Source: Fusobacterium varium (GTDB lineage Bacteria; Fusobacteriota; Fusobacteriia; Fusobacteriales; Fusobacteriaceae). From it: a stretch of 64,000 bases of DNA. The notes beneath the pieces are model-generated. The model was given only the letters and a program-made list of their open reading frames with translations, made no database searches and was not told the DNA's origin. A program made the translations under genes and the position numbers. Where the stretch lies: the NCBI GenBank assembly GCA_900637705.1, contig LR134390.1:1054001-1118000 (forward strand), in the 5' to 3' direction. Positions 38,612-49,523 of this stretch are shown here, piece by piece (the first letter of the stretch is position 1; every line of letters begins with the position of its first letter).

Positions 38612-38626
38612 TTGAAGGAGCGAAAG

Positions 38627-39694
38627 ATGAAAAACAAGAGAAGTACAAAGGAGCAATCATTTTGTTGGCAGGAGAAAAAAGTATTGAGATTATTTAGATG
38701 TCTATATGTGGGAAAGGAACTTGACAGGATTAGAAATCTGTATCTGACTCTTACTGAAATCTACAGTGATTTTAATGGGCAGGATATAAAATACTATACT
38801 GAAACAATAGCTAAATACAGTGGATTAAGCAAAGGTTGGATACCTAAAGGACTAAAAATACTTGAAGAGTTAAAAGTAATAGAATTGGTGGAGGAAAGAA
38901 GCAAGGGGAAATTTAAAGGGAAAAAATTAATATTTACTCCTGAAAACGTTGAAGAAATGGAAAAATTTACTAGAGAAGAAGAAATCAATAACGAGGAAAC
39001 TATTATCGAGGAAACTGTTACTGGTAAAACTATTACTGGAGAAACTATTATCGAGGAAAGTATTGCTGGTAAAACCATCACTGGAGAAACTATTGCTGAG
39101 GAAATTACCATGGGAGAAACCATCACTGGAGAAACTATTACTGGAGAAACTATCACTGGTAAAACCATTACTGGTGAAACCGTTGCTGATTTTTTACAGA
39201 CATCAGAAGATATTTTTGTTTTAGAAGATAATAAAAGATTAAAAGATATAAATAATACACACACAGAGGGAGAAAAAAATATTGAGAACAGAGAATGCAA
39301 AAAAGATGGCATGGAAAACACGCCAGTAGAGATCCAGCAGATATTAAAAAAATACAAAGAGTTGAATCTGCCTGATTTTGACTATAGACCAGAGAACCAT
39401 ATTTTGCTCAGGGCATATGGAGAATTGGGAGCTGCAAAGCTATTTGAAGCACTGACACTGATGTCACAGTCAAAATTTGTAAAAAACAACATGAGTGTGA
39501 ATGCAATCTTTAAAGTGGAAAACCTCAAAAAAGCTATCAATGGGAACTTTAAGGATAAAATATATAAGGGAAAAAAGAGCATTTCTGATACTAAAAAAGA
39601 ATTTAAAGAAATTGAGTATGAAGATTCTACAGGGGAATTTATAAAAGGGCTGCTTGCAAAAACATCTAGAGGGGGAGTAGATGAAGAAATGTGA
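38627..39694 (+). CDS. Phage/plasmid-type replication initiator-like protein with pentapeptide repeat tract
   Basis: A 355-aa protein. Residues ~25-110 look like a winged helix-turn-helix (TLTEIYSDFNGQ, YYTETIAKYSGLSKGWIPKGLKILEEL). Residues ~123-186 are a run of five-residue units of the form [EK]TI[TAI][GE]. The C-terminal third (LPDFDYRPENHILLRAYGELGAAKLFEAL, split over ~250-278) resembles DnaD/replisome-organiser regions. It lies directly before a DnaC-like loader and overlaps it by 14 bp, as in phage replication modules. Start ATG 38627 follows GAAGGAG. Identification is by pattern and context only. Confidence 0.6.
   Translation: MKNKRSTKEQSFCWQEKKVLRLFRCLYVGKELDRIRNLYLTLTEIYSDFNGQDIKYYTETIAKYSGLSKGWIPKGLKILEELKVIELVEERSKGKFKGKKLIFTPENVEEMEKFTREEEINNEETIIEETVTGKTITGETIIEESIAGKTITGETIAEEITMGETITGETITGETITGKTITGETVADFLQTSEDIFVLEDNKRLKDINNTHTEGEKNIENRECKKDGMENTPVEIQQILKKYKELNLPDFDYRPENHILLRAYGELGAAKLFEALTLMSQSKFVKNNMSVNAIFKVENLKKAINGNFKDKIYKGKKSISDTKKEFKEIEYEDSTGEFIKGLLAKTSRGGVDEEM
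38994..39184 (+). repeat. In-frame 15-bp minisatellite inside the initiator-like gene
   Basis: About twelve imperfect copies of a 15-bp unit close to GAAACTATTACTGGT, encoding ETITG, KTITG, ETIIE, ETIAE and variants. The unit length is a multiple of three, so copy-number change would lengthen or shorten a linker without breaking the frame. Confidence 0.85.
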
Positions 39695-40487
39695 ATTTTG
39701 TGGGGAAGATTATGTGAAAAATGAGAATAAATATTTTGCTGCGCTTCCAAAGGGGATTAAAAAAGAGCTGGAATATATACCCAGATGCGATTGTCTAGAG
39801 AAAAATAGGGCAAAGGAATTGGAGAAACTGGAAAAGAAGAGAGTACAGGAGTGTATGAAAAACAAGCTGAAGAAGTGCCTGGATATTTCTGTAATGGATA
39901 AAAAGTTTATAAACAGCAGGTTTGAGAATGCAGATATGAGCAGTAGTCATATGCAGCTGGCTAAAAGATATGCAGAGAATTTTCTGAAGAAGGATAAAAA
40001 AGAGGGTCTGCTTTTTTATGGGGGAGTGGGAACAGGGAAGACATTTGCAAGCGCCTGTATAGCGAACTATCTTATGGAGCAAGGGGAAACAGTGATAGTA
40101 ATCAATCTGGGACTGTATTTGAACAAACTCACCATAGAATGGGGAGAGGGAGAAAAAATTATTCTGGAACAGACAGAAAAATGTGATTTGATGATTATAG
40201 ACGATTTTGGATCTGAAAAAGAACTGGATAAGAATCAGACAGGGTGGAGAGCAGAAAAAATATATAATCTCATAGATGGGAGATACAGGAGTGAGAAGCC
40301 TTTGATAGTATCAACGAATCTGAACTTCAGTGAAGATAGAAACAGATGTGAGATAACTGAAAAGTTTTCAACACAGGGGCAGAACAGGATAAGGGACAGA
40401 ATAATTGATATGTGCTTTCCTGTACGAATAGCAGGAAATAGCAGAAGGGGAATGACACAGGAGAGATTCAGCGAATTTATGGAATAA
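39681..40487 (+). CDS. DnaC/IstB-like ATPase, probable helicase loader
   Basis: A 268-aa AAA+ protein. It has an N-terminal zinc-knuckle-like CEFCGEDY ... CDC, a helical stretch, then Walker A YGGVGTGKTFASACIANYL (~113-131) and Walker B LMIIDDFGSE (~172), arginine-finger region RIRDRIIDMC. This layout is that of phage DnaC-like helicase loaders. Codon use is richer in G/C-ending triplets (CTG, GCG, AGG) than the metabolic genes nearby, a sign of transfer. RBS GAGGGGGAG lies inside the preceding gene. Confidence 0.8.
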   Translation: MKKCEFCGEDYVKNENKYFAALPKGIKKELEYIPRCDCLEKNRAKELEKLEKKRVQECMKNKLKKCLDISVMDKKFINSRFENADMSSSHMQLAKRYAENFLKKDKKEGLLFYGGVGTGKTFASACIANYLMEQGETVIVINLGLYLNKLTIEWGEGEKIILEQTEKCDLMIIDDFGSEKELDKNQTGWRAEKIYNLIDGRYRSEKPLIVSTNLNFSEDRNRCEITEKFSTQGQNRIRDRIIDMCFPVRIAGNSRRGMTQERFSEFME

Positions 40488-40558
40488 AAAATTTGGGAGG
40501 CAGGGAATGAAAAAGAATTTGGAGGAAAGTGGAGCAGAGATAAAGAGAGGGAGTACAG

Positions 40559-40798
40559 GTGAATAGCGAAGAGTATATTTACAGAAAACTTGATACTCTA
40601 TCCTCTCTGGATAAGGTTTTATCTGAAGAAATGGTTAAACATCTAGGGGAGTGGGCAACGATAGACGATGTGGCAAAATATTTTAAAAAACATAGGAATA
40701 CTATATGCTACAAGCTGGAAGCAGGAGATATACTGCATAGAAGAATAGGAACGAGTATTTTGATTTATACAAGAAGCTTGATTTTTCTATTGGAATAA
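40559..40798 (+). CDS. Small helix-turn-helix protein (excisionase-like)
   Basis: A 79-aa protein with GTG start at 40559. GEWATIDDVAKYFKKHRNTICYKLEAGDILHRRIG is a MerR/excisionase-type HTH (shown here in outline, residues ~32-66). GEWATIDDVAKYF is the recognisable core. A 19-codon frame with its own RBS (40507-40566) overlaps its start and may couple translation. It could be a recombination-direction factor or a small regulator of the module. No integrase is present nearby. Confidence 0.55.
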   Translation: MNSEEYIYRKLDTLSSLDKVLSEEMVKHLGEWATIDDVAKYFKKHRNTICYKLEAGDILHRRIGTSILIYTRSLIFLLE

Positions 40799-40905
40799 GA
40801 TGCTAATACACATACATACACAAACAGCCACATTGGTGCACTGGATTGTTATGCGCATTGAGAGTATCATATACGTATGGCAAAAATAAAACAGGAGGCA
40901 GTAAA

Positions 40906-41220
40906 ATGGCAGGAGAAAATCAAGTAATATTAGCAGTGGTTCAAAAAGAAATGGAGAAGGTGGAAAATGCAATCAAGAGGGAAAAGGCTATATTAAAAAA
41001 TATAGACGATATAACAGCAACTCTTGAGCATATAGCAGAGCTAGTAGAATCAGGAAAGGAGTTCCCAGAAAACTCAGCATATGAGTCATACAAAGACTGG
41101 CAGGAAAGCGCAGAGAAGGAAATTAAATCTTATACAACTTCTTTGGAAACAATAGACAAGTACAGAAGTCTACTGGCAGCATACCAGTTTTATGTAAAAA
41201 ATAATACACCAGAAGCTTAA
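40906..41220 (+). CDS. Small helical protein, hypothetical (mobile module)
   Basis: A 104-aa soluble, highly charged, mostly helical protein with heptad-like spacing in MEKVENAIKREKAILKNIDDI (split over ~15-35). RBS AGGAGG lies 7 nt before ATG 40906. It shares the higher-G codon use of this module. A terminator follows at 41228. No known domain. Confidence 0.55.
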   Translation: MAGENQVILAVVQKEMEKVENAIKREKAILKNIDDITATLEHIAELVESGKEFPENSAYESYKDWQESAEKEIKSYTTSLETIDKYRSLLAAYQFYVKNNTPEA

Positions 41221-41227
41221 AGAAAAG

Positions 41228-41258
41228 AGGCTGTGGCAGAAGCTGCAGTCTTTTTTTT
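41228..41258 (+). terminator. Intrinsic terminator in the mobile-like module
   Basis: AGGCTG/CAGTCT (41228-41233 with 41246-41251), then seven T. It follows the stop at 41220. Confidence 0.65.
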
Positions 41259-41287
41259 ACCCAAAAATAAAAAACGGAGGAAAATTT

Positions 41288-41470
41288 ATGAAAACAATAA
41301 TAATAAAATTTTTAAAATATTTTATCAGCAGATGGTTTGGAACAAAGGCAATGGAAAAAGTAGTGATAACAGCTTTGGGAGAATTGGTAAAAAGAACAGA
41401 AAGCAAAATAGATGACAAGATATACGAGGCAGTATTTGAAAAACTGGAGGAGGAGAAAAATGATAAATAA
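41288..41470 (+). CDS. Small protein, hypothetical, phage-like
   Basis: A 60-aa protein with a hydrophobic/basic N-terminus (MKTIIIKFLKYFISRWFG) and an acidic helical tail. RBS GGAGG precedes the ATG. It overlaps the next gene by 11 bp. Pairs of tiny overlapping genes of this sort are typical of phage lysis or holin-accessory regions, but nothing proves that here. Confidence 0.45.
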   Translation: MKTIIIKFLKYFISRWFGTKAMEKVVITALGELVKRTESKIDDKIYEAVFEKLEEEKNDK

Positions 41471-41696
41471 TGCAGAACTGTTTTTTAAAATAATAACTAC
41501 AACAGGAACTTTTTTTCTGGCATACCACAGGTACACATTATCATTGTTTGAGAAAAAAATAGATAAAGGGGAGTGCGAAAAAGAAAGAATCTTTGCAGAA
41601 AAATTCAGAATAGAAAATATAAAAACACTGACTGAGGGAATAAGCAGAATTGAAGAAAGAATGACAAGGATAGAGGAGTATCTGATGAAGCATTAA
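41460..41696 (+). CDS. Small membrane-anchored coiled-coil protein, hypothetical
   Basis: A 78-aa protein: a short hydrophobic segment (AELFFKIITTTGTFFLAYH, residues 5-23), then a charged helix ending ISRIEERMTRIEEYLMKH with heptad character. RBS GGAGGAGG precedes ATG 41460. The layout resembles holin-adjacent or spanin-like small phage proteins. Function unknown. Confidence 0.45.
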   Translation: MINNAELFFKIITTTGTFFLAYHRYTLSLFEKKIDKGECEKERIFAEKFRIENIKTLTEGISRIEERMTRIEEYLMKH

Positions 41697-41746
41697 GAGG
41701 GAGAAAAAATAGAATACTAAAAAGTGGAAAAAGCGAGCTTTTTGCT

Positions 41747-42138
41747 AAAAAGTTCTTGTTTATACATAAAGGCGAACACATTCCCTATATTTTCCCTATC
41801 ATTGTACTCTTTAAATTTGTAAAAGTCAACATAAAAGTTTTGGGAGGGGAATGGGGTCCAAAAAATGAGGTATTAAAAATTGGGAGGTTAGAGCGTCTAA
41901 AAGTTCGCTTTTATGTATAAAAAGGAACTTTTCTCAGTTATCGGCTTAATTTCTACATTTAAATTTTTAATTTTAATTAGGATTTTGGAGCAAAAAATTG
42001 AAAAAAATTTTAAGAAAAATTTAAATAAAAAATATATAAAAACAAACTTGGGGAGGAAAAATATGATTGAAAAGATTATGAAGGCAGTAAAAAGCAGCAA
42101 CAAAAGAAGAGGAAGAAATATAACAATAGGGGCAGTAA
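41747..42138 (+). repeat. Autotransporter upstream region, direct repeat copy 1 (other copy 45327-45711)
   Basis: About 390 bp running from the left inverted site through the promoter segment to the signal-peptide codons is closely repeated at 45327-45711. The block from about 41855 to 41912 (GGGTCC...TTCGCTTTTAT) is almost base-for-base identical. The last part (AAATAAAAAATATATAAAAA) occurs a third time before the second autotransporter at 46336-46371. Confidence 0.85.
41752..41928. promoter_or_regulatory. Putative invertible promoter 1: IR-flanked segment upstream of autotransporter 1
   Basis: Two 26-bp sites (41752-41777 and 41903-41928) lie in inverted orientation around 125 bp. Read inward-out, each starts GTTCGC(C/T), has centre TTTAT-GT-ATAAA and ends GAAC, a 12+2+12 layout. 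The arms match at about 23 of 26 positions. Inside, on the minus strand, is a consensus promoter: TTGACT (41829-41824), 17 bp, TACAAT (41806-41801). It points away from the autotransporter at 42063. Inversion would aim it at that gene. Each arm can also form a hairpin, so paired terminators are the alternative reading. Confidence 0.6.
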
Positions 42139-45100
42139 TTGGATTCCTTTTGTCGTGTACAGCAGTAATGGGTGAAGATAAAGTACAGTTAGATATAGCT
42201 GTAAATGATGAAAAAATAAAGTTTAATGGTGAAGAATATAATAGTGAAACTCACAAATTTTTAGACAATACTTTTGATGGAGAAACTTATACTAACAATG
42301 AGGTGATTTTTAAAGAAACTTCAGATATGAATGATACTTCTACTGGGATAAAATTGGCATTATCAGATAAAACTATAAATATAATAAATAATGGAATAAT
42401 AGCAGCTAGAGGTGGAGGAAATGATGGTTATGGAATAGTTATTAGTTCAGGGACAATAGGAATTTTGACTAACAACGGACTAGTATTAGGTTATGGTGCT
42501 AATATGTCTTATGGTATATATAATGATTATTCAGGAAATATAACCACATTAATTAATAATGGACTAATAACTGCTAGCGAAGCTAGTAGTCCATGTGGAA
42601 TACAAAATAATGGAACAATAACTACACTAATTAACAACAAGTTTATAATTAGTAGCGAGTATGGAATAGAAAATGATGGAACAATAGGAACCTTAGTAAC
42701 ATCAGGAGCTAGTAATGGGATAAGTAGTAGTAACTCAAAAATAGGAAGCCTATTGAATAATGGAGTAATAGTAAGTGATGGGACTGAAACAGGAATATAT
42801 AATGGAGGGGCGTCAGCAGAAATGGACAACCTAAATAATCTAGGAGTTGTTTATGGAGAGAAAAATGCTATATCTAATACTGTTAATGGAGTTGTTTATG
42901 GAACTATAACAAGTGCAAAGAACTATGGAATACTTGTAAATGGAAGTGATACTAATGAGGTACTTGATGGATTAGATATTGTTGATTCATCTACTGCAGA
43001 TGCAAATAAATTAGTAAACTATGGACTTATAATAAAAAATAATGGTGAGGGTAAAATAGAGGCAGGAGCTGGAGGAGATCAAGATATATCAATACCATTC
43101 TATGATATTGAAGAAAATATCATGGGAGAAAGAAAGGTAAAAGTAGAAAATGTAACAGGAAAAAATGGTGATAAAAGTAATTCATTTGAAGGAGATAAAG
43201 AAAACCATATATTAAATGCTTTAACAAATACATATAAGGTTGGTGACAAAAATGATGAAGCTGAAGTGAAAGGTTCAATAGTCAATGCTTATGGAACAGC
43301 AGTTGTATTTGAAGAAGCAAATAAACAATTAACTTTGTCAGGAACAATAGTAAATGGTGGAATAGATGGGAATGCAACCATATTAGGAAGTGGTGGAGAG
43401 GATACACTAATACTTCAGTCAGGAGAAATTAAATATACAGATAAAGGAGTGGAAAAATCTATAACTCAAAATACTATAGTTAATGGAAATATAGATATGG
43501 GAGCTGGAGTTGATACCCTTACAATAGGAGATGGAACAATAATTAATGGAATTCTTGATGGTGGAGATAGCAATTCTAAAGATACTCTTAATTTTGGAAT
43601 AAGTTCAGGTGCTAAGTCAAATTCAGCAGACAGTCAAGGAATAAATATTATGCACAATATATCTAATTTCGAAAATATAAATATAAATACAAATGTTACT
43701 CTATTTAATCAAACTGTTAAAGCTGGTGGAACAGTAGAAGAATTAAAAGTAACAGGTGTAGAGAGCATAAAAATAGAAAAAGATGGAAATCTTATCCTAA
43801 GAATAAATGGAACAAGTGGAAACTCACATGCTTTATCAAGTAATACAGGAGGAGTAATAGAATCAAATGGAGGAAAACTTCTTTTAGCTCTAAATGGAGT
43901 ATCAGATGGAACTACAATAGATATGGGAATGAAGCTTGGAGATGGATTGTATGGTGTAGAAAATAATGATATTAAATACAGAGATTTATTTACTTTAGAA
44001 ACAACTTCTCTATTACACTCAGTTAGTAAAAATGAGCAGGATAATACAAAAGTAACTGTTACAACTAAATCTACACTGCCATTATCACCAGATACCCCTG
44101 AAGATGTAAATTATGAAAAATTAAATAAAATATATCAGAGTATGAGAGTTGTAGATGGAGTGAAGGAATTTGATGTAGATAGTGATGAGAAACTTTCAAC
44201 ATTCTTAGGATATTTAAATGACATCTATGCAGGGAATCCATATTCATATTCAAATGAGCTTTCAAGAAAATCAGTGGGAATGTTTAGAGATATAGCCACA
44301 GAAAATCAATTCAAACCAGAGCTGAATAAATGGTTGATAATGGGTGGATTAACTCATGCAGATGGTGGAACAAAAGATACATACTATGGAAAAGGATATT
44401 ATACATATGATATAGGAAGTTCAGATATAGACGCAGATACTAAGATAACAGGAGCATATATGCTTGGAGAGTATGGAGTATCAGACACATTGACTTATGG
44501 AGTAGTAATTGGAGGAAACAAGCTTAAATCTAACTTGTCTAATGGGTCAAAAGTAGATGGAGATGCGCTATATATGGGAGCGTATGCTAAGAAGTATGTA
44601 GGAAATCTAAAAGTAACAGGAGGATTAGGGCTACAGTATGGAGATTATGATGCAGATAGATTTGCAGCAGGAAAAGGAATAACAGAAACAAGAAGTTATT
44701 CAGATAACTATAATGATATGACATATGATATTTATCTAAATGGAAGATATTCTAATCCAATGGGAGATAACTTCTTCTTAGAACCATATGGAACATTGTC
44801 ATATACATATATCAAGCAGGATAGCGCAGATGAAGGAAGCAAGGTATTAGCAATAGAAACAGATTCAAAATCATTTGACTACACAGCAGCTAAAGTGGGA
44901 GTAGACATTAAGAAAGTAATACCACATGAAAAGGGAAAAAGTACACTGTCAGCAGGAGTGAGCTATACAAGACTTCTTACTGGGGCAGATGAAGAAAATA
45001 TCACAGGAAGATTTAAAGGAGAAAATGCAACTGACTTTGATATTTTGGTGGCTCATAAAAATGAACAAAGCATAGGACTAAATGCTAAGTACGCACTTGA

Positions 45101-45230
45101 ACTTGAAAATGGAATTCTGTTTGATGTAAAGGGAAGCTACTCATTAGAGAGAGATTCACACAAAGGAACAGGTAAAAACAGAAACAAAGGTGAATGGATA
45201 GTAGGTGCAGGACTGGGGTATAAGTTCTAG
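42063..45230 (+). CDS. Type V autotransporter 1 (surface/adhesin-like)
   Basis: A 1055-aa outer-membrane autotransporter. It has an extended signal sequence (MIEKIMKAVKSSNKRRGRN, then ITIGAVIGFLLSCTAVMG). The passenger (~38-735) is Asn/Gly/Thr-rich with repeated NNGxI-type turns expected of a beta-helix. The 12-strand barrel covers ~740-1055 (NQFKPELNKWLIMGG, FFLEPYGTLSYTY, ending GEWIVGAGLGYKF with the C-terminal Phe). Start ATG 42063 follows GGGGAGG; frames reaching further upstream are non-coding. The barrel is almost identical to that of 46383-49523, while the passengers differ. Surface role inferred; ligand unknown. Probably controlled by the invertible promoter upstream. Confidence 0.92.
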   Translation: MIEKIMKAVKSSNKRRGRNITIGAVIGFLLSCTAVMGEDKVQLDIAVNDEKIKFNGEEYNSETHKFLDNTFDGETYTNNEVIFKETSDMNDTSTGIKLALSDKTINIINNGIIAARGGGNDGYGIVISSGTIGILTNNGLVLGYGANMSYGIYNDYSGNITTLINNGLITASEASSPCGIQNNGTITTLINNKFIISSEYGIENDGTIGTLVTSGASNGISSSNSKIGSLLNNGVIVSDGTETGIYNGGASAEMDNLNNLGVVYGEKNAISNTVNGVVYGTITSAKNYGILVNGSDTNEVLDGLDIVDSSTADANKLVNYGLIIKNNGEGKIEAGAGGDQDISIPFYDIEENIMGERKVKVENVTGKNGDKSNSFEGDKENHILNALTNTYKVGDKNDEAEVKGSIVNAYGTAVVFEEANKQLTLSGTIVNGGIDGNATILGSGGEDTLILQSGEIKYTDKGVEKSITQNTIVNGNIDMGAGVDTLTIGDGTIINGILDGGDSNSKDTLNFGISSGAKSNSADSQGINIMHNISNFENININTNVTLFNQTVKAGGTVEELKVTGVESIKIEKDGNLILRINGTSGNSHALSSNTGGVIESNGGKLLLALNGVSDGTTIDMGMKLGDGLYGVENNDIKYRDLFTLETTSLLHSVSKNEQDNTKVTVTTKSTLPLSPDTPEDVNYEKLNKIYQSMRVVDGVKEFDVDSDEKLSTFLGYLNDIYAGNPYSYSNELSRKSVGMFRDIATENQFKPELNKWLIMGGLTHADGGTKDTYYGKGYYTYDIGSSDIDADTKITGAYMLGEYGVSDTLTYGVVIGGNKLKSNLSNGSKVDGDALYMGAYAKKYVGNLKVTGGLGLQYGDYDADRFAAGKGITETRSYSDNYNDMTYDIYLNGRYSNPMGDNFFLEPYGTLSYTYIKQDSADEGSKVLAIETDSKSFDYTAAKVGVDIKKVIPHEKGKSTLSAGVSYTRLLTGADEENITGRFKGENATDFDILVAHKNEQSIGLNAKYALELENGILFDVKGSYSLERDSHKGTGKNRNKGEWIVGAGLGYKF

Positions 45231-45326
45231 AATAAATAATACTTTAATCAAAATACACAGGGTACTCTAAATAATTTTTTTAAAGAGAGCTTGAGTAGAG
45301 AAAACATTGATTAAACCTGAATAAAC

Positions 45327-45711
45327 AAAAAAGTGTTCCCTTTTATCTATAAAGGCGAACACTTTTCTGATGTTTTCCCTACCATTATAATCTTTAAATT
45401 TGGAAAAGTCAATATAAAAGATTTGGGAGGAAAACGGGGTCCAAAAAATGAGGTATTAAAAATTGGGAGGTTAGAGCGTCTAAAAGTTCGCTTTTATAGA
45501 TAAAGAGGAACTTTTTTCAGTTACCGTCTTAATTTCTACAAATAAATTCTCAATTTTAATTTGGATTTTGGAGTAGAAAATTGAAAAAATTTCAAATAAA
45601 AATATATAAAAACAAACTTTGGGAGGAAAATTTGTGATTGAAAAAGTTATGGAAGTAGTAAAAAGCAGCAACAAAAAGAGAAGTAGAAATATAACAATAG
45701 GCGCAGGACTG
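45327..45711 (+). repeat. Autotransporter upstream region, direct repeat copy 2
   Basis: This matches 41747-42138 from the left inverted site to the NITIGA codons, then jumps straight into autotransporter 3'-end sequence (GCAGGACTGGGG). The 45231-45326 stretch before it holds no gene. Confidence 0.85.
45335..45511. promoter_or_regulatory. Putative invertible promoter 2: IR-flanked segment upstream of scar-HU-HU-autotransporter 2
   Basis: This has the same design as 41752-41928: inverted 26-bp sites at 45335-45360 and 45486-45511 around exactly 125 bp. The centre is TTTAT-AG-ATAAA in both arms (the first pair has GT). On the minus strand lies TTGACT (45412-45407), 17 bp, TATAAT (45389-45384), a full consensus promoter facing away from the genes at 45634-49523. 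Flipping it would drive the scar ORF, both HU-like genes and autotransporter 2, which follow without another clear promoter. Confidence 0.6.
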
Positions 45712-45726
45712 GGGGATAAGTTCTAG
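45634..45726 (+). pseudogene. In-frame deletion scar of a third autotransporter gene
   Basis: A 30-codon frame with GTG start and RBS GGGAGG. Codons 1-24 equal the autotransporter signal start (MIEKVMEVVKSSNKK..., through NITIGA), and codons 25-30 equal the extreme C-terminus (GLGDKF, compare GLGYKF). The whole ~1000-codon middle is gone. The joint falls at GGNGCAG, present at both ends of the intact genes, so deletion by recombination at this microhomology is likely. The frame and stop are preserved; the peptide itself is unlikely to work. Confidence 0.85.
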
Positions 45727-45746
45727 CAATAAAAATGGGGGAAGTA

Positions 45747-46040
45747 ATGAAAGAAGGGGAATTTATAAGGTTCTATAGAGATAGAAATTGTTTGAGGAGC
45801 ATTAAGGAAGCAAAAAAAAAGATAGACTTGTTTTGGACTGTTGTGTTGAAGGCTTTAGATGAAGATGGAAAAGTATTATTAAAAGACTGGGGAGTATTTG
45901 AGAAAAAAGAGGTAGCTCCTAGAAAAATAATGACACCGAGAATGGAAAAAGAAAGAGTGATAAAAGCAGGGGAAAAGATAATATTCAGAACAGGAACAGG
46001 CTTAAAAACTCTTGTCAATGGAGCTGATGCTGATGAATAA
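45747..46040 (+). CDS. HU/IHF-family-like DNA-binding protein 1
   Basis: A 97-aa protein. The C-terminal half carries the HU arm pattern: LKDWGVFEKKEVAPRKIMTP (~45-64), then IFRTGTGLKTLVNG (~80-93; compare HU FKAGKALKDAVN). The N-terminal helices are more divergent than in housekeeping HU. ATG 45747 follows GGGGGAAG; an ATG at 45735 overlaps the RBS. It is translationally coupled to the next HU-like gene and placed between the second invertible segment and autotransporter 2. A DNA-bending role is inferred. Confidence 0.7.
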   Translation: MKEGEFIRFYRDRNCLRSIKEAKKKIDLFWTVVLKALDEDGKVLLKDWGVFEKKEVAPRKIMTPRMEKERVIKAGEKIIFRTGTGLKTLVNGADADE

Positions 46041-46305
46041 GAGAGAGCTGGCAAAGATATACAGCAAAATAAGTCAGGGAAAGGTATCACAAAAAGCAGC
46101 CCTAGAGGAAATAAATATATTTACACAAACCTTGCAGGAAGCCTTGATGAAATATGATTCAGTAACATTTGTCAACATAGGAGTATTTGAAATACTGGAA
46201 AGAAAGCCGAGATTAGTTAGCAATCCATCGACTAGGGAGATAATGAAAATATATCCTAAGAAGGTAGTAAGATTTAGAGCATCAAAAAATATAATGAAAC
46301 CTTAA
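46033..46305 (+). CDS. HU/IHF-family-like DNA-binding protein 2
   Basis: A 90-aa protein with HU architecture: MNKRELAKIYSKISQGKVSQKAALEEINIF (helices, split over 1-30), VTFVNIGVFEILERKPRLVSNPSTRE (~46-71) and VVRFRASKNIMKP at the end. The GxFxxxxRxxRxxxNPxT pattern is clear. It overlaps the first HU-like gene by 8 bp, which suggests a heterodimer like IHF alpha/beta (inference). The start ATG 46033 has GGAG 9 nt upstream. Confidence 0.75.
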   Translation: MNKRELAKIYSKISQGKVSQKAALEEINIFTQTLQEALMKYDSVTFVNIGVFEILERKPRLVSNPSTREIMKIYPKKVVRFRASKNIMKP

Positions 46306-46382: not shown

Positions 46383-49300
46383 GTGATTGAAAAAGTTATG
46401 AAGGCAGTAAAAAGGGGAAATAAAAAGAGAAGTAGAAATATAACAATAGGTGCAGTGATTGGATTTTTGTTGTCATGTACAGCAGTAATGGGAGCAGATA
46501 TTGGATTAGAAATAACTCAAAAAGCAGATGAAGAAATAAAATTTGACGGTATTGAATATGACAGAGATAGACATAAATTTTCAGATAATACTTTTAAAGA
46601 CAATACTTATACAAACAATATGACAATTTCTGCAGAAAATGCTTCAGGGAATGCTTATGGAATAAAACTTAAATTATCAGGTGAAAGTAGTATAAGTATA
46701 ATAAATAATGGAACAATATCAGGTAATTCTACAAAAAGTACTGGAAATGGGATATCCAATGAATCTGGAATAATAGAAACATTGACTAATAACGGTTTAA
46801 TATCTGGTTCAAGTCCTACTAATGGATATGGGATATCCAGTAATGGAATAGGAATATTGACTAATAACGGTTTAATATCTGGTTCAAGTTCTGCTAATGG
46901 ATATGGGATATACAGTAATAAGGGAACAATAGAAACATTGACTAATAATGGGATAATATCTGGTAGTTCAGGTAGTAATGGAAATGGGATAAAGATTAAT
47001 AATGGAAAAATAGAAACATTGACTAATAATGGAATAATATCTGGTTCAGGTAGTAATGGATATGGGATAGCCACTGCTTTTGGAGCAATAGAAACATTGG
47101 CTAATACAGGAGTTATTTATGGAAAAGCTAATGCTATAGTGAGAGGCAATGGAGATATAGGTACAGCAAACAACTATGGAATACTTGTAAATGGAAATGA
47201 TGGAGGAAAAGTAGTTAATAACTTAACAATTGTTAATGCTATTCCTGATGAAGATAATACTAATTTAAGTAAAAATGAAATATTAAACAGAGGACTGATA
47301 TTTAAAGCATTAGATACAGGGTATAAAGTAGAAACAGAAGCCTATAAACAATTTGGAGCAATCTATAAGGATAAGGATATTGTAATTGGTTATGAGAAAG
47401 ATGATGAAAATCCTGATTCAAGTAATCCAATAACAAAAAAATATACAATAATCAATGCTAAAGCTATTGAAAGTGAAAGCGATATGACTGGAATAAATGC
47501 TGCAACTGAAGAAGTTAATATAACTGGAACTGAAAGTTTAAAATTAGAAAATGGAATTTTAACATATGGAGATTCTCAAAAAGAAAAAATTTCTTCAGAT
47601 AAAGGGTATATTTTAAATGGTATAACAGATACTTTGAAAGTTACAAAAAAACATAATGAACTTAATGATTCAATAATTAATGCATATAAGACAGCAATAG
47701 TTATGGAAGGTGATAGTACTTATTTGGAACTTAATAATACAATAGTTAATGGAGGGTTAGGTGATAATTCTCCTGTAATATTAACAAGAGGAGATAAAAA
47801 CTTTTTAACTATAAAAGGAGATACGATAGTTAATGGAGAAATAAAATCAGAGGGAAGATTAAATACTTTAAATCTCTATGGAAAAGAAAATAAGACAAGA
47901 AGCAGTAATACTGAAAGTATGAATATTATTAATAATATAACAGGATTTGGAAGAATACAGATAGAAAATGATGTCACTTTTTTTGAAACAGCTAAAGTAA
48001 CAGAAGTAGAAAGAATAAATATAAATAATGGAGGAACTCTCAATCTTAGATTAAAGAAAGATGAAGGAGCTTCAAAAGCAACTCATGCTCTTTCATCAGG
48101 AAATACAGGTCTTCTTATAGCTGGACTGGAAAAGGGAGGTTCTTCAACAGAAGGGACACTTAATTTCATAACTAATGGAATGGGAACTGGTACTATCATA
48201 GATATGGGTGGAGCAAAATTAGAAAATGTAAATCTAAAAACAAATAGTATTGTGTATAAGTTTGAAATAGTAGAAACGGAAAATGAAAATATTAGCGCAA
48301 ATATAGGAGATATAAAACTTGACTTAAAAGGAAGTTTAGAAGAAATAGTTAATAGTGGAAGCATAACTTTTGATAATTATCCAAAATATAGTCTTATTCC
48401 AGATGAAACAGAGTATAAGGCATTAGATAAAATATATCAAAGTTCAAAAACAGATGATAATATGAATGCCTTAGTAGAGATACTGGATTCATCTTCAGAT
48501 GAAGAACAATGGAAAAGACTTCTTTCATTTTTAGGAGGAATATATACAGAAACTCCATACTCATTTTCAAGCGAACTTTCAAGAAAATCAGCTGGAATGT
48601 TTAGAGATATAATCACAGAGAACCAGTTCAAACCAAATTTAAATCAATGGTTGATAATGGGTGGACTAACTCATAGAGATGGAGGAACTAAAGACAGCTA
48701 CTATGGACAGAATTATCATGGAATAGATGCAGGTACAGCAGATGTAGATGTGGATATGAAGCTTACTGGAGCTTACGCCCTTGGTAAATATGGATATTCA
48801 GAAAATGTATCATTAGGAGTAACAGCAGGAGGAAACAAAAGTGAAGCTAAACTTCCAATGTCAAAAGTAAAAGGAAACAGTGGATATATAGGTGCTTTTG
48901 CAGAAAACTACAGAGGAAACCTTACACTAAAAGCAGGAGCAGGAATTCAATATTCAGAATATGATGCAGACAGAGCAACACTGGGAGGACACAGCTACAG
49001 TGAGAAATATTCAGATATGGCATATGATATTTACCTAAATGGAAGATATTCTCATAACATAGGAGAAAACCTGTTCTTAGAACCATATGGAACACTGTCA
49101 TATACATATGTAGACCAAGAAAGCGCAGATGAAGGAAGCAAAGTATTAGCAATAGAAACAGATTCAAAATCATTTGATTATACAGCAGCTAAAGTGGGAG
49201 TAGACCTTAAGAAAGTAATACCACATGAAAAGGGAAAAAGCACACTTTCAGCAGGGGTAAGCTATACAAGGCTACTTACTGGTGCAGATGAAGAGAATAT

Positions 49301-49523
49301 CACAGGAAGATTCAAAGGTGGAAGCGACTTTGATATTTTAGTAGCTCATAAAAATGAACACAGCATAGGACTAAATGCTAAATATGCTCTTGAACTTGAA
49401 AATGGAATCCTATTTGATGTAAAAGGAAGCTATTCAGTAGAGAGAGATTCACATAATGGAAATGGAAAAAACAGAAATAAAGGTGAATGGATAGTAGGAG
49501 CAGGAATAGGGTACAAGTTCTAA
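46383..49523 (+). CDS. Type V autotransporter 2 (surface/adhesin-like)
   Basis: A 1046-aa protein, GTG start at 46383 after GGAGG. The signal start (MIEKVMKAVKRGNKKRSRN, ITIGAVIGFLLSCTAVMGA) is the family one. Passenger residues ~95-245 hold five to six copies of a ~25-residue unit (IETLTNNGLISGSS-xxNGYGI), nearly identical in DNA. A more irregular beta-helix region follows. The barrel covers ~735-1046 (NQFKPNLNQWLIMGG ... GEWIVGAGIGYKF). The barrel DNA from about 49050 on is nearly identical to autotransporter 1, which gives a substrate for recombination. Function is inferred as surface adhesion or interaction. Confidence 0.92.
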   Translation: MIEKVMKAVKRGNKKRSRNITIGAVIGFLLSCTAVMGADIGLEITQKADEEIKFDGIEYDRDRHKFSDNTFKDNTYTNNMTISAENASGNAYGIKLKLSGESSISIINNGTISGNSTKSTGNGISNESGIIETLTNNGLISGSSPTNGYGISSNGIGILTNNGLISGSSSANGYGIYSNKGTIETLTNNGIISGSSGSNGNGIKINNGKIETLTNNGIISGSGSNGYGIATAFGAIETLANTGVIYGKANAIVRGNGDIGTANNYGILVNGNDGGKVVNNLTIVNAIPDEDNTNLSKNEILNRGLIFKALDTGYKVETEAYKQFGAIYKDKDIVIGYEKDDENPDSSNPITKKYTIINAKAIESESDMTGINAATEEVNITGTESLKLENGILTYGDSQKEKISSDKGYILNGITDTLKVTKKHNELNDSIINAYKTAIVMEGDSTYLELNNTIVNGGLGDNSPVILTRGDKNFLTIKGDTIVNGEIKSEGRLNTLNLYGKENKTRSSNTESMNIINNITGFGRIQIENDVTFFETAKVTEVERININNGGTLNLRLKKDEGASKATHALSSGNTGLLIAGLEKGGSSTEGTLNFITNGMGTGTIIDMGGAKLENVNLKTNSIVYKFEIVETENENISANIGDIKLDLKGSLEEIVNSGSITFDNYPKYSLIPDETEYKALDKIYQSSKTDDNMNALVEILDSSSDEEQWKRLLSFLGGIYTETPYSFSSELSRKSAGMFRDIITENQFKPNLNQWLIMGGLTHRDGGTKDSYYGQNYHGIDAGTADVDVDMKLTGAYALGKYGYSENVSLGVTAGGNKSEAKLPMSKVKGNSGYIGAFAENYRGNLTLKAGAGIQYSEYDADRATLGGHSYSEKYSDMAYDIYLNGRYSHNIGENLFLEPYGTLSYTYVDQESADEGSKVLAIETDSKSFDYTAAKVGVDLKKVIPHEKGKSTLSAGVSYTRLLTGADEENITGRFKGGSDFDILVAHKNEHSIGLNAKYALELENGILFDVKGSYSVERDSHNGNGKNRNKGEWIVGAGIGYKF

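Follow-up and report, generated by a model that had tools for sequence, protein, structure and literature searches.

Fusobacterium varium carries a family of promoter segments that are bounded by inverted 26-base-pair (bp) sites and lie mostly beside autotransporter genes. The stretch of DNA analysed here (the window; 64,000 nucleotides, G000:C1:1054001-1118000) belongs to a genome, G000, that is a single contig of 3,302,398 bases. It holds two such segments, each 125 bases long and containing, on the minus strand, a near-perfect sigma-70 promoter; the autotransporter is on the plus strand. The paired sites share their central 6 bp, which vary from pair to pair, and at homologous loci the interior is found reversed. 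We consider it probable that these segments form a genome-wide family of invertible promoters, mostly before autotransporters, and that a small tyrosine recombinase inverts them in trans, acting at a site made up of a 10-bp arm, a 6-bp overlap and a 10-bp arm. The original prediction, drawn from the letters of the window, had placed four 26-bp sites here. They are borne out by a search with the site pattern allowing up to 3 mismatches, which gave exactly 4 matches in the window, whereas 100 shuffles averaged 0.18 and never gave more than 1. The sites and segments are listed below; core letters and position numbers 1-26 are read outside-in on each arm.

41752..41777, plus strand: segment 1 gene-distal site, GTTCTTGTTT-ATACAT-AAAGGCGAAC, core 41762-41767
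41778..41902, no strand: segment 1 interior, 125 bp, predicted to be invertible from homologous interiors that are inverted at other loci
41801..41829, minus strand: segment 1 consensus promoter TTGACT-17-TACAAT, OFF, facing away from the autotransporter (G000 position 1095829)
41903..41928, minus strand: segment 1 gene-proximal site, outside-in GTTCCTTTTT-ATACAT-AAAAGCGAAC, core 41913-41918
45335..45360, plus strand: segment 2 gene-distal site, GTTCCCTTTT-ATCTAT-AAAGGCGAAC, core 45345-45350
45361..45485, no strand: segment 2 interior, 125 bp, predicted to be invertible, from the paired-site search
45384..45412, minus strand: segment 2 consensus promoter TTGACT-17-TATAAT, OFF, facing away from the downstream genes (G000 position 1099412)
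45486..45511, minus strand: segment 2 gene-proximal site, outside-in GTTCCTCTTT-ATCTAT-AAAAGCGAAC, core 45496-45501

Read outside-in, the full sites are GTTCTTGTTTATACATAAAGGCGAAC and GTTCCTTTTTATACATAAAAGCGAAC for segment 1 and GTTCCCTTTTATCTATAAAGGCGAAC and GTTCCTCTTTATCTATAAAAGCGAAC for segment 2. The two central bases match within each pair, as had been claimed: AC on both arms of segment 1 (given as GT, on the other strand) and CT on both arms of segment 2 (given as AG).

Exact sites number 43 across G000, versus 0 for a reversed control pattern, and occur in 4 of 98 genomes of the phylum, all four in one genus. For an unbiased pair search only the outer GTTC and GAAC were fixed, with 18 free bases between them; spacings of 105-165 bases were searched in 12 genomes of the genus and spacings of 166-226 in the four site-bearing ones. 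This search returned 61 inverted pairs (22 in G000, 8 in G008, 14 in G009 and 17 in G010), and the reversed control returned 0. The remaining 8 genomes of the genus gave 0 pairs at the 105-165 spacing, the one range searched there. Many of the loci are paralogues, and the pairs are therefore not independent. Outside this set, the exact pattern matched 20 stretches from unrelated groups in wider genome contigs, one site each, plus one viral contig, all of which we take as chance, and a plasmid search with window positions 41600-42600 found no match.

Alignment of the two arms across the 61 pairs delimits the shared block sharply. Positions 11, 12, 15 and 16 agree in 61/61 pairs and positions 13 and 14 in 60/61; the whole core is identical in 60 pairs and takes 11 different 6-mers. 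Random partners from the same genome agree at positions 11-16 with frequencies of 0.94, 0.97, 0.50, 0.61, 1.0 and 0.81, and positions 11, 12 and 16 differ between pairs but never within one. Outside the core, true partners agree about as often as random ones (0.54 versus 0.56 at position 5, 0.49 versus 0.47 at 7, 0.75 versus 0.78 at 9, 0.80 versus 0.84 at 10, 0.90 versus 0.90 at 17 and 0.39 versus 0.35 at 20), and somewhat more often at positions 6, 21 and 22 (0.69 versus 0.57, 0.87 versus 0.79 and 0.95 versus 0.88). When partners were permuted within genomes for 20000 rounds, a mean of 21.9 and a maximum of 35 of the 61 matched. Collapsing the set to distinct arm combinations leaves 42 of 43 in agreement.

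The same was seen in a hold-out set of 18 extra pairs with one damaged end, found without reference to the core: 17 agree, and the exception is a false site paired by a greedy rule, its evident partner at G008:465399 matching. These pairs add the cores ATACAA and ATTTAA, which brings the family to at least 13. Moreover, trees built from the interiors, with the sites excluded, in four families of 14, 12, 9 and 9 loci require minima of 2, 2, 4 and 2 core changes, at least 10 in total over 44 loci, with an equal count on the distal and the proximal arm; the agreement is therefore not one inherited state. The claim that paired sites share a central dinucleotide that differs between pairs thus held as to the matching (60/61 pairs, 17/18 in the hold-out set) and failed as to the width, since the shared block is 6 bp and not 2. 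The agreement within pairs was also expected to be perfect, and 1 of the 22 pairs in G000 is discordant (1564473/1564624, AC versus CT).

The width of the block bears on the class of the enzyme. In the original prediction the sites were assigned a 12+2+12 layout of the kind used by serine invertases of the Hin/Gin type, and their palindromic arms and matching central two bases do suit a 2-bp overlap. Hin/Gin sites would share that dinucleotide; here the partners have the whole of positions 11-16 in common, and 11, 12 and 16 are among the positions that vary from pair to pair and never between partners. None of the 61 cores is palindromic (one arm per pair), and in 11 of the 61 pairs the central dinucleotide is AT, itself a palindrome without polarity. 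To an enzyme with a 2-bp overlap AT would look the same in both directions, whereas an overlap of 6 bp would still have polarity. The outer core bases are asymmetric in 11/11 of these pairs, versus 3/50 of the others (Fisher 8.7e-10, a guide only, the pairs being related). Block width and core polarity therefore favour a tyrosine recombinase. Hin/Gin systems also have a small serine recombinase gene, and the sole Resolvase-family gene of G000 is a 456-amino-acid (aa) frame; G008 has one of 504 aa and G009 one of 478 aa, and G010 alone has Resolvase-family frames of 200-231 aa, two of the three on its third contig. As read from these genomes, a Hin/Gin enzyme is disfavoured on three counts: the shared block is sharply 6 bp wide, no core is palindromic, and three of the four genomes lack a small serine invertase. 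The same points favour a tyrosine enzyme whose overlap is 6 bp. We therefore rejected the serine 2-bp model, which we regard as very improbable, because the block is too wide for it and a small serine gene is missing.

The sites have what is expected of tyrosine-type invertible promoters: equal overlap-type cores (6-8 bp in such systems, 6 bp here, in 60/61 pairs, with putative cleavage sites) and, as in the FimB and Tsr systems, inverted sites flanking a promoter-bearing segment (61 pairs). They do not resemble Xer/dif sites, which have unlike XerC and XerD arms and number one per replicon; the arms here are alike, and there are tens of sites.

Inversion itself is indicated by comparison of homologous loci. 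Between G008_2099442 and G008_2279891 the flanks are collinear (z scores of 12.2 upstream and 22.9 downstream) and the interior is 87% identical when reversed (z 23.3, versus -0.1 unreversed). The interior of G009_3783353 aligns with those of three paralogues at z 14-16 reversed and 8.5-9.9 unreversed, and these interiors seem partly self-complementary; for G009_958543 and G009_1641174 the values are 13.7 and -0.4, with a z of only 3.6 for the downstream flank. Such loci, with the interior reversed between collinear flanks, indicate from assembled sequence that segments of this family invert. A strict promoter pattern is present in 49 of the 61 segments, pointing away from the assigned gene in 42 and towards it in 7, with none in the other 12 (gene sides were assigned by hand, and some are uncertain). 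When the promoter faces the gene, expression would be ON.

The sites could instead be static palindromes, terminators or protein-binding sites, whose matching centres were inherited as whole loci duplicated. The sites do form strong inverted repeats bordered by T-rich DNA, and paralogues are common among the loci. Against this stand the interiors inverted between collinear flanks, the conserved promoters inside the segments, the 10 or more core changes in equal number on both arms, and the want of any matching just outside the core. We give this explanation the least credence. Whole-locus duplication alone was rejected as insufficient because the core changes are equal on both arms and the arms outside the core are unmatched. 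That the sites are not simple terminators had been argued in the original prediction, and we concur; they are better described as recombination sites flanking promoter segments.

Why the two cores of a pair should agree may be answered mainly by the reaction itself. If the cores were unequal, each new site would be a heteroduplex after inversion: along one strand of the chromosome both arms would show the core of one parental site, and along the complementary strand both would show that of the other. A single round of replication would then give each daughter two equal cores, so that the next flip would either remove a core mutation that arose in one arm or spread it to both. Strand bookkeeping on paper gives this outcome: inversion across unequal cores re-matches each daughter. 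Re-matching needs only occasional exchange of unequal cores, and it would explain why cores change at both arms and the adjoining letters do not. The matching is thus probably for the most part a footprint of inversion, to which a homology requirement in strand exchange and some insulation of neighbours may add. We found no description of re-matching by strand exchange in the literature searched. More tentatively, the core may be a self-synchronising address: inversion across unequal cores would re-match both arms in each daughter, addresses would evolve as units, the family having diversified to at least 13 cores, and different cores would let neighbours under one recombinase flip independently.

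A selected address code is another account of the matching: unequal cores would block exchange, and selection would keep the cores of neighbours different, so that each flips alone and the genes between them are not rearranged. It predicts cores that match within pairs, and the two segments of the window do differ. Among 79 loci there are 8 neighbour pairs less than 10 kilobases (kb) apart, of which 1 shares a core class, versus 3.8 expected (P=0.03, permutation). The same test with identical core and orientation gives P=0.28, and three distances and two measures were tried. The available text of PMC9947245 describes Xer-type sites in which reversible exchange goes with identical 6-bp central regions, and that of PMC10850332 reports 16 orthogonal LoxPsym spacers; according to the latter, a change of spacer alone is insufficient for orthogonality. 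Cores are, however, widely shared. In G000, 8 pairs have ATACAT and 7 have ATGTAT; the two are reverse complements and form one class that takes in 15 of the 22 pairs, and one class likewise covers 16 of 22 loci in G009 and 11 of 19 in G010. The dinucleotide is therefore not the private address it had been called, and a perfect private code was rejected on the shared cores and the one discordant pair. The proposal that neighbours are insulated fared in between: neighbours in the window differ and 1 of 8 rather than 3.8 share a class, but the effect is lost with orientation. Insulation of neighbouring switches is possible, if weakly supported, and we think a selected address code unlikely.

The discordant pair, the only one from the unbiased search (G000 1564473/1564624; locus L033, 1564473-1564649), has CT at the distal and AC at the proximal arm. 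On the distal side, flank and site follow segment 2 of the window; on the proximal side they follow an AC locus, and the switch from one to the other falls inside the shared interior. From this mosaic we read it as a probable homologous-recombination hybrid of two loci. That it has stayed discordant accords with the address code; under either model, lasting discordance suggests that 1564473 has not flipped since the hybrid arose.

A site-specific recombinase, serine or tyrosine, had been called for in the original prediction, and small tyrosine recombinases are present. G000 has nine Phage_integrase matches, of which two are short and intact: a 198-aa protein at 358180-358773 and a 189-aa protein at 1408056-1408622. 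The former (PF00589, E=4.2e-22) has residues R44, H146, R149, H172 and Y181, invariant in 6 relatives, which we take to be the catalytic residues; as in FimB and Tsr, this is a small tyrosine recombinase with these residues intact. Among the 12 genomes of the genus, relatives at 75% identity or more occur in exactly the four that bear sites (G000, G008, G009 and G010), and the 198-aa protein (G000:358180-358773) is our best candidate for the enzyme. Relatives on Fusobacterium plasmids are 43-57% identical, one of them beside an autotransporter gene; the flanks analysed around the 198-aa genes and these plasmid relatives contain no site of this kind. Two copies of the 198-aa family, one at G010:3156432 and the other, a broken one, at G000:1140660, stand some 4 kb away from a pair, too few to test linkage. 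The broken copy (G000:1140660-1141195, L025) is about 4 kb from the switch at 1145044. A predicted structure of the 198-aa protein (mean pLDDT 53) was set aside, and of 595 matches to its pattern in wider genome contigs none was confirmed. In G003, a recombinase gene with 51% identity to the 198-aa protein has a perfect 10-6-10 palindrome, GTGCATATTTTGTATAAAATATGCAC, at its start (L081:2108-2133), which may be the site of that enzyme itself.

The same switches could be served by a different tyrosine enzyme, namely the 189-aa recombinase beside HU (G000:1408056) or a XerC/XerD-like protein. The 189-aa protein belongs to PF00589, has a neighbouring HU-like gene (so labelled from a reading of the sequence) and has counterparts in G008, G009 and G010 that are 91-94% identical to the G000 query. 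Its presence in 10 of the 12 genomes of the genus, 6 of them without sites, makes us doubt this choice.

Several points weigh against a tyrosine-driven family flipped by the 198-aa protein. Its gene is unlinked to the sites in G000, with none near 358 kb; its co-occurrence with the sites may be one event, the four genomes probably being close relatives; and the 189-aa recombinase next to an HU gene is conserved in the same four. Matching of this kind is also what strict selection for homology would produce, with no need of re-matching, and the pairs, as paralogues, are not independent. Inversion is known from assembled sequences only, the window segments are seen in one orientation, and in G000 the promoter points away from the assigned gene in 19 of 22 segments.

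The genes around the two segments are as follows.

42063..45230, plus strand: autotransporter gene, 1055 aa, PF03797 E=1.2e-27, presumably controlled by segment 1
45634..45726, plus strand: 30-codon autotransporter remnant, a signal-peptide start fused to the last barrel codons (compare the preceding gene)
45735..46040, plus strand: HU/IHF-like DNA-binding protein 1, 101 aa, PF00216 E=2.5e-11
46012..46305, plus strand: HU/IHF-like DNA-binding protein 2, 97 aa, PF00216 E=2.9e-17
46383..49523, plus strand: autotransporter gene, 1046 aa, after segment 2 and the HU-like genes, PF03797 E=2.2e-24

The remnant at 45634-45726 looks like what a deletion between two short direct repeats, with loss of the gene they enclosed, would leave behind. 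The overlapping HU/IHF-like genes (45735-46305) sit between segment 2 and the next autotransporter, and similar pairs of open reading frames (ORFs) follow other switches (e.g., G000 1560156-1560711 and 1762764-1763334); HU or IHF could help bend the sites. Ahead of segment 1, at 38612-41693, is a cassette of an unassigned 360-aa ORF, an IstB-like ATPase and two small ORFs, which recurs whole or in part before other switches (e.g., G000 749576-751390 and 1569307-1571366) and which its recurrence suggests is a mobile or duplicating unit. Elsewhere in G000 there are solo sites at 595782 (L026) and 2105540 (L037), each with two outer arms and adjoining an autotransporter start; they look like scars of lost promoter segments, a loss that would lock the gene OFF. 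In the 125/126-bp family of G010 (L089-L101), certain loci (1739892, 1677255) have the outer-arm variants TTTAAT and TTATAT swapped or equalised, which may reflect exchange between loci.

Surface autotransporters have been put forward as virulence factors in gut Fusobacterium, with 44 in Fv113-g1 and 32 in ATCC 27725 according to PMC5720691; the main text of that paper, which deals with those of F. varium, makes no mention of inversion, phase variation or promoters. We found no report of promoter inversion in Fusobacterium in a search that reached few subscription papers and so is not proof of absence. If many autotransporters do stand behind independent switches that are mostly OFF in culture, very many surface coats would be possible, and single-isolate expression studies would miss most autotransporters. 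The pair comparison further suggests that the overlap width of an unknown recombinase can be measured from genome sequence alone, a measure by which invertible elements not yet assigned could be divided between the serine and the tyrosine class.

Several surface-protein switches under one or a few tyrosine recombinases are known from multiple promoter inversion in Mycoplasma penetrans and from RecV of Clostridioides difficile. The spacer of LoxPsym, an engineered site, is 8 bp. Invertible autotransporter promoters (PMC6083910) and master invertases (PMC4747536) are already known, as the available parts of these papers make clear. In uropathogenic E. coli, ipuS is an invertible promoter element of the autotransporter UpaE; FimB-like tyrosine recombinases invert it, and some of these act at several elements in trans (PMC6083910). 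The family described here resembles it in placing an invertible promoter before an autotransporter and, we infer, in flipping by a tyrosine recombinase. In contrast to ipuS, which in the available text is one element with 7-bp repeats and recombinase genes alongside, the family here has some two dozen paralogous elements, their sites are 26 bp long, and the gene of the candidate enzyme is far off. The master invertases of Bacteroides fragilis, the serine enzyme Mpi (13 regions) and the tyrosine enzymes Tsr19 and Tsr0667 (PMC4747536), offer the closer parallel of one enzyme flipping many distant surface-gene promoters, as would be the case here; the available text of that paper makes no mention of core agreement within pairs or variation between them. 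Unlike Mpi, the site anatomy here points to a tyrosine enzyme with a 6-bp overlap. The pXerC/D sites of Acinetobacter (PMC9947245) are, like ours, natural tyrosine-recombinase sites at which identity of a 6-bp central region goes with reversible exchange, but, as far as the available text goes, they have two different arms (XerC and XerD), belong to plasmid modules and switch no promoter. In the orthogonal LoxPsym variants (PMC10850332), too, spacer sequence keeps many pairs apart; those sites are engineered and, in the available text, symmetric by design, whereas no core in this family is symmetric.

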